This document shows positions 7,910-16,990 of a DNA stretch of 60,785 bases, in pieces (positions within the stretch are counted from its first letter, which is position 1; each line of letters opens with the position of its first letter). The translations under genes and the position numbers were made by a program. The notes beneath the pieces are model-generated. The model was not told the DNA's origin. It made no database searches and saw only the letters and a program-made list of their open reading frames with translations. This DNA is from a virus. The DNA lies in IMG/VR virus record IMGVR_UViG_3300009008_000039, positions 1 through 60,785 of that record; one strand, given 5' to 3'.

Positions 7910-7987
7910 TGGTAGACCGACTGGGAGTCGAACCCAGAACCAAGGGTTTATGAGACCCCTACTCTAACCTGATTGAGCTATCGGTCC
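7910..7987 (-). tRNA. trnI(cau): tRNA with CAU anticodon, probably tRNA-Ile2 (AUA)
   Basis: The cloverleaf is complete. The acceptor stem GGACCGA pairs with TCGGTCT, the anticodon loop is CTCATAA (anticodon CAT), the T arm is normal, and the 3' CCA is encoded. A CAU anticodon reads as Met unless C34 is modified to lysidine. The acceptor has C4-G69 and C5-G68, pairs known as TilS recognition features of E. coli tRNA-Ile2; E. coli elongator tRNA-Met has U4-A69 and A5-U68. The stretch after the anticodon stem (TTGGTTC) also resembles tRNA-Ile2. A tilS gene lies directly upstream and overlaps the tRNA 5' end, so I favour tRNA-Ile2. Confidence 0.9.
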
Positions 7988-8622
7988 ATAATTAATATAG
8001 GATCTTGCTGAGAGGAGTAAACACCATGGAGTTTCTTTTTCATGGTCTTCGCCAAACCAGGATTAACCACGAGGGCGCTCGGCATGATATCGTGCCTAAT
8101 AACATTTCTCATGTGCGCGCGGGAATCATTAGAAGGGTCGTGCAGATATGGCACGCCATGGCGGTCACACCAAGACACGAGAGAGGTTCGAGGAGAAGCT
8201 AAAAACGGCCTAATGATGTTGTATTCCTTATTTTGATAGGGCATCAGCTTTCCATCGCCTCTCAGGGAAGTAAAGATCCACCACTCAGCCACATCATCCA
8301 GGTGGTGTGCGGTAATAATAGGCGCACTAGAAGAATACTGCTTGAAAAAAGAATACCTCTCATTGCGCCAATATTCCTCCCACGACTCTCCATCGTTCTT
8401 AGTTCTCGTCAGCGCGCCAACGTGAACAGGGATATCGCGGTCAGTACAAAAGTCTTGCACAAACTCGCGTGCATCTTTCGCGTGCTCTGAGCCGTGATCA
8501 AAGTGCAATACTCGCACATTCCGTCTTCCGGTGTCAACAAAACTTAGAGCAGCCATGGAGTCTGCACCACCAGAAACTGCCACGAAAATATTATTAGGAA
8601 TCTTTCCTAGAAGTTTAATCAT
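7978..8622 (-). CDS. tilS: tRNA(Ile)-lysidine synthetase, short form
   Basis: TilS attaches lysine to C34 of tRNA-Ile2(CAU), changing decoding from AUG to AUA and aminoacylation from Met to Ile. The PP-loop ATP site SGGADS is at residues 17-22, HFDHG at 40-44, the family signature AHHLDD at 105-110 with RGDG after it, and PSNDS with RNVIRH near 163-180. These identify TilS itself and not merely an ATP pyrophosphatase relative. At 214 residues it has only the catalytic N-terminal domain; E. coli TilS has about 430. The stop lies inside the 5' end of the CAU tRNA, and the start overlaps the DUF458 gene. Confidence 0.9.
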   Translation of the reverse strand: MIKLLGKIPNNIFVAVSGGADSMAALSFVDTGRRNVRVLHFDHGSEHAKDAREFVQDFCTDRDIPVHVGALTRTKNDGESWEEYWRNERYSFFKQYSSSAPIITAHHLDDVAEWWIFTSLRGDGKLMPYQNKEYNIIRPFLASPRTSLVSWCDRHGVPYLHDPSNDSRAHMRNVIRHDIMPSALVVNPGLAKTMKKKLHGVYSSQQDPILIMDR

Positions 8623-11092: not shown

Positions 11093-11250
<158 letters not shown>

Positions 11251-11260
11251 TATGCAGTAA

Positions 11261-11365
11261 TTAGAAGTGAATTGCAACTAATGCCGCCACCACAATAATC
11301 GTGACTACGGACAAAGACACTTTCAAAACGTTATCACCATTAAAATCTTTCTCAAAATCATTCAT
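11261..11365 (-). CDS. Tiny single-pass membrane protein inside the tRNA cluster (34 aa)
   Basis: A short frame reads MNDFEKDFNGDNVLKVSLSV, continues VTIIVVAALVAIHF and then stops. The ATG has a strong AGGAG six bases upstream. The N-terminal half is acidic and soluble; the C-terminal 20 residues form one transmembrane helix. It occupies the gap between tRNA-Thr and tRNA-Asn. The function is unknown. Confidence 0.7.
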   Translation of the reverse strand: MNDFEKDFNGDNVLKVSLSVVTIIVVAALVAIHF

Positions 11366-11393
11366 TGTTTTCTCCTGAAGTTGTAATAGAATG

Positions 11394-11467
11394 CTGCGCA
11401 GACAGGGCTCGAACCTGTGACATTCTGATTAACAGTCAGACGCTACTACCAACTGAGCTACTGCGCA
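11394..11467 (-). tRNA. trnN(guu): tRNA-Asn (anticodon GUU)
   Basis: The acceptor TGCGCAG pairs with CTGCGCA, the discriminator is G, and the anticodon stem TCTGA/TCAGA encloses CTGTTAA. The D stem has one mismatch (13-22). The 3' CCA is not encoded (GCAT follows), unlike the Arg, Thr and Leu tRNAs. Confidence 0.9.
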
Positions 11468-11476
11468 TTAATTGTG

Positions 11477-11563
11477 TGGTAGCCGAGGCGGGACTCGAAC
11501 CCGCAAGCCCAATTGGGCGACAGATTTTAAGTCTGTTGTGTATGCCAATTCCACCACTCGGCC
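11477..11563 (-). tRNA. trnL(uaa): tRNA-Leu (anticodon UAA)
   Basis: This is a class II tRNA with a long variable arm (GCCCAATTGGGC). The acceptor GGCCGAG pairs with CTCGGCT, the anticodon loop is CTTAAAA, and CCA is encoded. It reads UUA and UUG. Confidence 0.95.
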
Positions 11564-11607
11564 ATATAAAGAACATAGGGACGCTTTTGTAAAAAGAAAA
11601 CTAAATG

Positions 11608-11680
11608 TGGAGCTGGACGGGATCGAACCGACGACATCTGCCTTGCAAAGGCAGTGCTCTACCAACTGAGCTACAGCCCC
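11608..11680 (-). tRNA. trnA(ugc): tRNA-Ala (anticodon UGC)
   Basis: The acceptor GGGGCTG pairs with CAGCTCC and includes the G3-U70 alanine identity pair. The anticodon stem CTGCC/GGCAG encloses TTTGCAA. A full 3' CCA is not encoded (ACAT at the end). It reads GCA. Confidence 0.95.
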
Positions 11681-11901: not shown

Positions 11902-12036
11902 TTAAACATCTATTATTATGACTCTTTCTTCTTTGTCTTCGTCTTTTTCTTTCTGTTTCGCTTCTTCGTACTGATCTTCGTCTTCGCGTCGGGGAGATGG
12001 AAGCGGAATCTGCAAATAAGGACGATCTTCGGGCAT
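11902..12036 (-). CDS. Short acidic protein of RPYLQIPLPSP type (44 aa)
   Basis: The start overlaps the stop of the upstream gene as TAATG. The protein is MPEDRPYLQIPLPSPRRED, then a Glu/Asp/Lys run, ending ERVIIIDV. Short RPYLxIP-type proteins occur in other phages, as I recall, with no known function. Three consecutive isoleucine codons near the end are all ATA, which matters for the tilS/tRNA-CAU pair. Confidence 0.65.
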   Translation of the reverse strand: MPEDRPYLQIPLPSPRREDEDQYEEAKQKEKDEDKEERVIIIDV

Positions 12037-12215
12037 TATCCCTGGCCTCGACTAGGCTTGCGTCTGCGATGGCGCTTGCTCGGAGGTGACCCAGCGCGAC
12101 GATTATCAAAGAATGTCTCGCCTCCCGATTTGGTCTTTTTTGTGAACCTGCCTCCACCTTGGGTTGTCTTCTTCTTGGAAGTGGCCAAGGCCTTCTTGTT
12201 TTTAATCTTTGCCAT
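12036..12215 (-). CDS. Small very basic protein (59 aa)
   Basis: The protein is MAKIKNKKALATSKKKTTQG, a Gly/Lys/Thr-rich middle, then RRAGSPPSKRHRRRKPSRGQ. About 40 percent of residues are Lys or Arg, so nucleic-acid binding is likely. The start lies inside the end of the deformylase gene. A competing frame at 11891..12157 is poorly supported; the frame given here uses ATG-TAATG coupling to the next gene. Confidence 0.6.
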   Translation of the reverse strand: MAKIKNKKALATSKKKTTQGGGRFTKKTKSGGETFFDNRRAGSPPSKRHRRRKPSRGQG

Positions 12216-12657
12216 TTTTTATCAACTCCATGTCAATGGTTCTATCGTGCATCGTAATGCCGTCTAAGTGATCAATTTCATGCTGGACACAGACACACTC
12301 CAGAGCATCCTTGTCAAAGGAAAACACCAAATCTTCTTTATGATTTGATGCGCGCACCACGATGTCTGTCCAACGCTCTGTCATAACATAGTCACCGGGA
12401 AACGACAGACAAGATTCTTGAAAGAAACTCCTGCCGCTTTTTTGTATTATTTCTGGATTGATTAATATCACCGGGCGACCGACCGCGATGACACACACAC
12501 GAGCATCGACGCCCACTTGATTAGCCGCCAAGCCAACGGCATTAGGCTCTTCTTTTAATATTTCCAAGAGCCGATTGGCCAAAACAAGACCAGCTTGATG
12601 CCGGTCAACAGGACGACAGCTTTTTCTTAAAGCCTCTTCGTCCTCAACGTATCTCAT
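12202..12657 (-). CDS. def: Peptide deformylase
   Basis: The enzyme removes the formyl group from new polypeptides. The three metal-site motifs are present: GLAANQVG at 42-49 (usually GxGxAAxQ), ESCLSFPG at 81-88 (usually EGCLS, here Glu-Ser-Cys), and QHEIDHLDG at 125-133. The length of 151 residues is short but complete for the catalytic core, as in marine phage deformylases. It follows Hsp20 and a terminator, with a CTATTTATT element just upstream, so it may have its own promoter. Confidence 0.9.
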   Translation of the reverse strand: MRYVEDEEALRKSCRPVDRHQAGLVLANRLLEILKEEPNAVGLAANQVGVDARVCVIAVGRPVILINPEIIQKSGRSFFQESCLSFPGDYVMTERWTDIVVRASNHKEDLVFSFDKDALECVCVQHEIDHLDGITMHDRTIDMELIKNGKD

Positions 12658-12734: not shown

Positions 12735-13169
12735 TTATTTAATTTCTACAGAAAGTGGCCTGGCTTCTTCCATATGCGGAATTACCAAACGTAGAAGGCC
12801 ATTTTCATATTCAGCAGTCGTTGCACTCAAGTCAAGATTGTTGTCATAATTGACGTACGTCTTGTGAAAAGCTCGACGAGCAATCCTTCGCGAATTGAAA
12901 TCAACACTGTCCTCATCGCCATGAGAATCAGCGCTCACATGGATTGACCTTTTATCTGGATAGATCTCAACATGGAGATTCTCTTTCCTGAAGCCTGCGA
13001 GGGCGAACTCCACTACAGTCTCTCCACCTTCTCCTTGGTAGATATCTGCAACGGGGTACCCTTGGGTTGTGCGATTCGTCAAACTTGGAAAATCCAGCAT
13101 TGAATCGAAAATATCGTTGAAAACACTGCCGCCCAATAAACTAGGTCGGTAAGTAGCTAACGTTGTCAT
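12735..13169 (-). CDS. Small heat shock protein, Hsp20 family
   Basis: This is an alpha-crystallin-type holdase of 144 residues. The domain has PVADIYQGEGGETVVEFALA, then GFRKENLHVEIYPDKRSIHV, ARRAFHKTYV, and the C-terminal strand ENGLLRLVIPHMEEARPL, which carries the conserved NGLL[RT][LI] motif. Hsp20 genes are common in T4-like aquatic phages. It is flanked by a promoter candidate and a strong terminator, so it is probably a separate transcription unit. Confidence 0.9.
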   Translation of the reverse strand: MTTLATYRPSLLGGSVFNDIFDSMLDFPSLTNRTTQGYPVADIYQGEGGETVVEFALAGFRKENLHVEIYPDKRSIHVSADSHGDEDSVDFNSRRIARRAFHKTYVNYDNNLDLSATTAEYENGLLRLVIPHMEEARPLSVEIK

Positions 13170-15357: not shown

Positions 15358-16920
15358 TTATTCCTCTATGATGGCGTTGCTTGTTGTGATGAGCATCGAT
15401 GCAGCAGATACGGCGTTTTGCAAGGCAACTCTGGTCACCTTCGCTGGATCTACAACACCCTCATCGCTCAGGTTTGCTAGTTGAGATCTCTTAAAATCCC
15501 AACCCATAACACCACTATTTGTAACTATATCAACAACTAAGTCTGGGCTGTCGCCAGAGTTAGATGCCATCTGACGGATGGGTGCCTGGAGTGACTTTCT
15601 TAGAATCTCTGCTCCAAAATGCTGGTCTTCGTTATCAGTCTCCACCTCAAAGTCTGCGCACCTCAGCAAAGTGGTGCCTCCGCCAGGAACGATGCCTTCC
15701 TGCTGGGCTGCGTTAACAGCTTCCAGGGCGTCTTCGATGCGGTGTTTGAGTTCTATCATCTCTACTTCAGTCGCGCCGCCAACCTTTATAACCGCAACAC
15801 CTGATTGCAGTCTCGTTATACGTCTTTGCAGGTTCCTGCATTCGTCCATGTCTTCAGTCTGCTTAATCTCGCTCTTCAGGGACTCAATCTTCTTCTCAAC
15901 CTCTTCGTAGTTCGCGGCTCCACCCATGAAAGTGGTGTGATTCTTTAAGACCTCTACCTTCTTACAGACTCCAAAGTCAGACATCTTTATCTCTGCTATG
16001 TTCTTACCAGAGGCCCTATTGAAGAATGCTGCGCCAGTTGCAAGGCACAAGTCTTTCATGATTTCCGCGCGCGCATGGCCGTATTCCGGAGCCTTGACGG
16101 CTGCCACCTTCATACTCCCGCGCACTGCATTCATTATAAGGGCGGCGAGGGCCTGACCTTCAACCTGCTCTGCTACAATTATCAATGGACGTGACTCGCG
16201 TGCAGCTAGCTCAAGTGCTGGGAGGACCTTCTGTACGGTGTCTATCTTGTGATCCGTGACCAGAATCAACGCATCTTCATGCTCTACTGCGTTCTTGCGT
16301 TCATTTGTCACAAACGCCTGGGCGAAGTATCCGGCGCTGAATCTGAATCCTTCGACGAGATCTAAGCTGGTTTCAAAAGACTTGGCTTCTTCGATCAAGA
16401 TGGAACCTTCGTGGCCGGCCTTATCGACAGCGTTAGCTATCAACTTACCAACCGTGGGGTCGTTGTTTGCAGAGATAGAAGCGATGTTCTCAATATCTTG
16501 TAGTGACTCAACCGGGGTCGATACATCTTGTATCTTCTCCACCACTACGGCAAGGGCTTTGTCCATCCCTCGCTTAAGCTCCACAGGAGAGCTACCAGCA
16601 ATCAAATACTTTTGGCTGTTCCTAAGAAGATCGCGGGCTAACACCGTTGATGTAGTTGTTCCGTCTCCGGCGTGAGTGTTTGTTTCTGAGGCGACTTGCT
16701 TAAGAATCTGTGCTCCAGCATTCTCTATCGGACACTGAAGATCGACAAACTTAGCAACTGTGACCCCATCTTTAGTAATGATGGGTCGGCCTTCCTTTTT
16801 GCCTAAAATGACATTTCGCCCTTTTGGGCCAAGCGTGGCTGCCACGTTATCTGCTAACTTCTCGACACCACTAAGTATTTTTTGCTGTAAGTCTAGATCG
16901 TTGGAATAGACTTTGGACAT
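15358..16920 (-). CDS. groL: GroEL-type chaperonin
   Basis: This 520-residue chaperonin subunit is close to full length (E. coli 548). The N-terminal ATP site has VAATLGPKGRNVILG and GDGTTTSTVLARD. The second equatorial part has VGGATEVEMIELKHRIEDAL and EGIVPGGGTTLLR. The C-terminus ends in IIEE, without the GGM tail of bacterial GroEL. I start at MSKVYSND because GAGG lies five bases upstream; a GTG two codons earlier is unlikely. A matching GroES-like gene is at 30818..31090, far from this one. It probably folds phage proteins such as the capsid. Confidence 0.95.
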   Translation of the reverse strand: MSKVYSNDLDLQQKILSGVEKLADNVAATLGPKGRNVILGKKEGRPIITKDGVTVAKFVDLQCPIENAGAQILKQVASETNTHAGDGTTTSTVLARDLLRNSQKYLIAGSSPVELKRGMDKALAVVVEKIQDVSTPVESLQDIENIASISANNDPTVGKLIANAVDKAGHEGSILIEEAKSFETSLDLVEGFRFSAGYFAQAFVTNERKNAVEHEDALILVTDHKIDTVQKVLPALELAARESRPLIIVAEQVEGQALAALIMNAVRGSMKVAAVKAPEYGHARAEIMKDLCLATGAAFFNRASGKNIAEIKMSDFGVCKKVEVLKNHTTFMGGAANYEEVEKKIESLKSEIKQTEDMDECRNLQRRITRLQSGVAVIKVGGATEVEMIELKHRIEDALEAVNAAQQEGIVPGGGTTLLRCADFEVETDNEDQHFGAEILRKSLQAPIRQMASNSGDSPDLVVDIVTNSGVMGWDFKRSQLANLSDEGVVDPAKVTRVALQNAVSAASMLITTSNAIIEE

Positions 16921-16990
16921 ACACACCTCTCTTGTTATAAAGTAAGAACAGTATAAAACAAATCAACAATAATATTAAATTAATTTAAAT

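Follow-up and report, generated by a model that had tools for sequence, protein, structure and literature searches.

A gene for a short tRNA(Ile)-lysidine synthetase (TilS) overlaps a tRNA with anticodon CAU in the virus record IMGVR_UViG_3300009008_000039. With a probability of roughly 85%, this locus is a phage AUA-decoding module in which TilS modifies the neighbouring tRNA-Ile2, the isoleucyl-tRNA synthetase (IleRS) of the host charges it and AUA is read. The combination of tilS and a CAU tRNA recurs in other phages and looks like a widespread AUA-reading kit in large phages.

The window, meaning the whole stretch of 60,785 bases that was analysed, encodes a gp23-type capsid protein, a tail sheath, a UvsX-like recombinase, a DnaB-like helicase, a ribonucleotide reductase and GroEL. 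Its source is an uncultured T4-like myophage and it is probably a piece of a larger genome. The tilS gene (7978..8622, minus strand, 214 amino acids) starts with ATG and ends with TAG inside the 5' end of the tRNA gene (7910..7987, minus strand, 78 nt with encoded CCA), which was found with ARAGORN and the Rfam tRNA model. The overlap comprises 10 nt (7978..7987, minus strand), with the stop codon (7978-7980) forming U8-A9-G10 of the tRNA. At its other end, tilS overlaps by 4 nt (ATGA) with an RNase H-like gene (PF04308; 8619..9089, minus strand), and these two genes are likely to be on one transcript. The RNase H-like gene is not conserved as a tilS partner in relatives, and none of the nine window proteins tested is a conserved neighbour, as they are seldom near tilS in relatives. 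Promoter- and terminator-like sites around the tilS-tRNA pair were not more numerous than in shuffled sequence. Five more tRNAs (Arg UCU, Thr UGU, Asn GUU, Leu UAA and Ala UGC) form a separate cluster 3 kb upstream (11093..11680, minus strand). The phage also has several translation and protein-folding genes aboard, with peptide deformylase, HSP20 and GroEL at 12202-12657, 12735-13169 and 15358-16926 (minus strand).

The protein contains the motifs SGGADS (PP-loop), AHHLDD, DPSNDS and RNVIRH and scores 125.4 bits against TIGR02432 (lysidine_TilS_N), for which the cut-off is 93.6 bits. The same model was matched by all 47 aligned phage relatives. An AlphaFold2 model of the window TilS has a mean pLDDT of 95, and its top PDB matches are TilS from Aquifex aeolicus, including the complex with ATP, magnesium and lysine, and TilS from Escherichia coli, with TM-scores of 0.76-0.80. 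The residues R89, D110, E113, N165 and R176 are invariant in the 47 phage sequences and align with R113, D137, E140, N194 and R205 of Aquifex TilS, which we take to be the catalytic and lysine-contact residues. No C-terminal tRNA-binding domain is present in the window TilS or anywhere in the phage clade. Such domains are typical of cellular TilS and are not what defines the activity, and the window protein was therefore classed as a short TilS variant. Phage TilS measured 197-240 amino acids (median 204) and the bacterial proteins had a median of 444.

The tRNA scores 64.8 bits with the Rfam tRNA model (gathering score 29) and has the anticodon loop CUCAUAA, A73 and the pairs C4-G69, C5-G68, G27-U43 and G1-U72. 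Because a BLASTN search on E. coli genomes rendered no match, the annotated ileX, metT/U and metZ were compared directly, with scores of 33.5 for ileX, 19.5 for elongator Met and 9.0 for initiator Met. BLASTN matches on phages were mainly to annotated tRNA-Lys and tRNA-Arg and were set aside. Among 31 labelled cellular CAU tRNAs, a set in which leave-one-out assignment was correct for 30, the nearest class was Ile2 (37.0, compared with 27.5 for Met and 15.0 for initiator). The Met references are mostly from Firmicutes together with one E. coli sequence, which was misassigned to Ile2 when left out, and class calls are therefore soft for phage tRNAs with weak margins. The determinants for TilS in E. 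coli tRNA-Ile2 (PMC12069591), namely U33, C34, A37, G27-U43, C4-G69 and C5-G68, are all present in the window tRNA. C29-G41, a minor element for E. coli IleRS (PMC9976931), is replaced by G29-C41. Judged by these features, the tRNA is of the Ile2 type and not Met. The sequence-only reading of this locus had described a full TilS catalytic domain with these motifs in a catalytic-domain-only protein of 214 residues, a stop codon within the tRNA and an Ile2-like tRNA with C4-G69 and C5-G68, and all of this stands. Many phage CAU tRNAs near tilS, that of the window among them, have U72 (G1-U72 or A1-U72); the corresponding pair is G1-C72 in Ile2 and elongator Met of E. coli.

A phage tRNA with anticodon CAU is of no use for AUA before it is modified. 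The window contains 325 ATA codons, corresponding to 18.1 per thousand and 30% of the isoleucine codons, and this share is 0.89 of what is expected from third-position composition at fourfold-degenerate sites. The ratio of observed to expected ATA shows avoidance in T7 (0.37) and KVP40 (0.19) and averages 0.76 in tilS phages. A codon count had been suggested earlier as a check for ATA enrichment, and enrichment in the window is rejected: ATA is not avoided, yet it does not exceed composition. Since ATA makes up 30% of isoleucine codons and is not avoided, AUA decoding is in demand without enrichment. Three consecutive ATA codons had also been pointed out in a small gene. The codons are there, in the stretch GTC ATA ATA ATA GAT GTT TAA at the end of the ORF at 11902..12036 (minus strand), but the status of this 44-amino-acid ORF as a gene lacks independent support. 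High ATA use was likewise seen in gp23 relatives with no tilS in the contig, these contigs being fragments of genomes.

At alignment columns where the window has ATA, the homologues have Ile at a frequency of 0.39, Leu at 0.19 and Val at 0.16. These columns are close to those of ATT and ATC, unlike columns of Leu or Met codons, and AUA therefore means isoleucine in the window phage. Some CAU tRNAs near tilS (L016, L004/L054, L051/L065 and L074/L079/L080) are 83-86 nt long and have a long variable arm and a Leu-like body, with the loop CUCAUAA kept. In the L004 and L074 groups, Ile reaches 0.46-0.47 at ATA columns, like ATT and ATC, and reassignment of AUA to leucine by such class II-looking CAU tRNAs was rejected there; the same check for L016 comprises four ATA positions only.

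A phage that brings both tRNA-Ile2 and its modifying enzyme had been considered unusual in the sequence-only reading. This did not hold, because a scan of IMG/VR found relatives of this TilS family in at least 522 viral contigs and phage TilS has been published (PMC6892783, PMC7029224). On the tree, a branch with 99% support separates phage TilS from 38 bacterial TilS, which were chosen by similarity, and the root is therefore not settled. To assess linkage, loci were clustered at 90% identity, which gave 56 clusters with 2 kb or more of sequence on both sides of tilS. The proposed search for tilS-tRNA neighbours in other phages was rewarding in that 34 of the 56 clusters have a CAU tRNA no more than 2 kb from tilS; the next commonest tRNA, Arg(UCU), was found in 13. 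Comparison with the cellular references placed 56 of 59 distinct phage CAU tRNAs nearest to Ile2. All 51 partner tRNAs have CUCAUAA and A73, while both C4-G69 and C5-G68 are present in only 18. Outside the phages, any tRNA within about 5 kb of tilS was found in only 5 of 78 bacterial loci (L098-L175), with CAU in all five, and the neighbourhood may thus exist in some bacteria too. A phage-type tilS with a CAU tRNA within 600 nt also occurs in two contigs (L096 and L097) that belong to a Halobacteriovorax MAG and a Pelagibacteraceae single-cell genome; they are probably phage DNA in those assemblies.

In the proposed mechanism, the window TilS would use ATP and lysine to form lysidine from C34 in the neighbouring tRNA-Ile2(CAU), its predicted substrate. 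The lysidine-bearing tRNA would be rejected by the MetRS of the host and charged by its IleRS, and would then read AUA, a codon freely used by the phage. The benefit would presumably be enough correctly modified AUA-reading tRNA during infection. The sequence-only reading had called the pair self-contained, a description that is not supported: charging with isoleucine still requires the IleRS of the host. Most bacteria have a TilS of their own. The phage might need its own enzyme because a burst of phage tRNA exceeds the capacity of the host TilS, or because the partner tRNAs have diverged from the features that TilS of the host recognises. The first of these options suits the window better since its tRNA keeps the E. 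coli determinants. For the same reason, TilS of a gammaproteobacterial host might modify the window tRNA too, and with TilS present in most bacteria the phage enzyme may be dispensable for this tRNA. Substrate choice by the short phage TilS probably depends mainly on the anticodon loop, because the C-terminal domains are missing throughout the clade while the acceptor stems of the partner tRNAs vary and CUCAUAA is constant.

The position of the tilS stop codon implies that release of the tRNA by RNase P would remove this codon from the tilS message. In L087, L089 and L090, tilS reaches 39 nt into the CAU tRNA, and its stop codon coincides with U36-A37-A38 in the anticodon loop. The overlap thus differs between phages and is not conserved, and it may be mere compactness. 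A bolder proposal is that the minimal TilS picks its substrate by the loop alone, uncoupled from the acceptor-stem code of E. coli and serving diverse tRNA bodies, and that the overlap acts as a switch by which one transcript gives either enzyme or tRNA; this is possible but rather doubtful.

It is unlikely that TilS chiefly serves the host tRNA-Ile2 or another Ile2 pool, for instance after decay of host tRNA, with the adjacency to CAU reflecting only that translation genes gather in phage tRNA clusters. Such gathering would account for the Arg(UCU), Thr(UGU), Leu(UAA) and Lys(UUU) tRNAs that also lie near tilS, and for the tilS phages in which a nearby CAU tRNA is missing (22 of 56 clusters without one within 2 kb). 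However, CAU is over-represented, and in loci having two or more tRNAs including CAU it is the nearest in 22 of 33, where label shuffling gives an expectation of 9.1; this count was reached in none of 20,000 shuffles, a test that is generous in taking the clusters as independent. The CAU tRNA lies close to tilS on the downstream side in 10 and on the upstream side in 5, and about 11 state changes of this position on the tree also argue for a specific association. Furthermore, a CAU-tRNA pattern occurs elsewhere in 8 of 15 contigs, nearly all of which have no CAU tRNA within 10 kb of tilS. In a sample of 12 contigs drawn by gp23 and not selected on tilS, both contigs with tilS have a CAU tRNA beside it, and 2 of the 10 without tilS have a CAU tRNA.

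Slightly less probable still is a TilS of relaxed specificity, for which the neighbouring tRNA would be only one target. Other tRNAs with CUCAUAA would then be modified as well, and because host elongator tRNA-Met would be among them, decoding by the host pool would move from AUG to AUA. The clade-wide lack of C-terminal domains and the constancy of the loop in partner tRNAs whose acceptor pairs vary are consistent with this, and the loop of E. coli elongator tRNA-Met is identical. On the other hand, the phage depends on AUG decoding itself, a dedicated substrate is favoured by how closely tilS is linked with Ile2 tRNAs, and other elements might provide the discrimination. Far more improbable than either is a misassignment, in which the tRNA would be an elongator or initiator Met tRNA, or the protein another PP-loop enzyme (TtcA, TtuA or QueC), leaving no AUA pair. 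ARAGORN does label the tRNA as Met, from the anticodon, and models of PAPS reductase, QueC and TtuA match the protein weakly. But the tRNA is clearly closer to Ile2 than to the other classes, the C1-A72 mismatch is not present, the TtuA, TtcA and QueC models give about 20 bits or less against 125 for TilS, and the top fold matches are TilS structures. An AUA-decoding module of TilS and its neighbouring tRNA-Ile2 is thus the preferred reading.

Published work already covers TilS and tRNA-Ile2 of phages as well as lysidine in a phage tRNA. A report of tilS and a CAU tRNA as a recurring linked pair was not found in the open-licence literature. The pair is more general than first thought and less rare than claimed. 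In many phages the modifying enzyme comes with the tRNA, and lysidine would then be a modification supplied by phages and not only by the host. Hundreds of natural one-domain TilS beside their likely substrates also make the discrimination between tRNA-Ile2 and tRNA-Met testable on small matched sets.

Several known systems share parts of this arrangement. Lysidine has been measured in a vibriophage tRNA(CAU), apparently formed by host enzymes (reviewed in PMC13191261). The tRNA-Ile2(CAU) described in T4-like phages (PMC1524935) and in Latilactobacillus prophages (PMC10688831) has Ile2 features and serves AUA, as in the window; these papers report no phage tilS, and the one on prophages instead mentions tilS in the host strains. 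A tRNA(Ile)-lysidine synthetase is mentioned in one sentence for pelagimyophages of group PMP-A (PMC7029224), which are T4-like marine phages, and a tRNA partner is not described there. TilS has also been published in the Pseudomonas phages MIJ3 and PA5oct, with its function left open and no link drawn between tilS and a tRNA (PMC6892783). These proteins are short, about 44% identical to the window TilS and in the same clade, and the phages have Ile2-like CAU tRNAs, although about 7-10 kb from tilS and not adjoining. The cellular enzymes from A. aeolicus (PDB 1wy5, 2e21, 2e89) and E. coli (1ni5) have the fold and the catalytic residues in common with phage TilS. In these cellular enzymes, of 317 and 433 residues, the catalytic domain is followed by one or two C-terminal domains, whereas the proteins of the phage clade stop after the catalytic domain.
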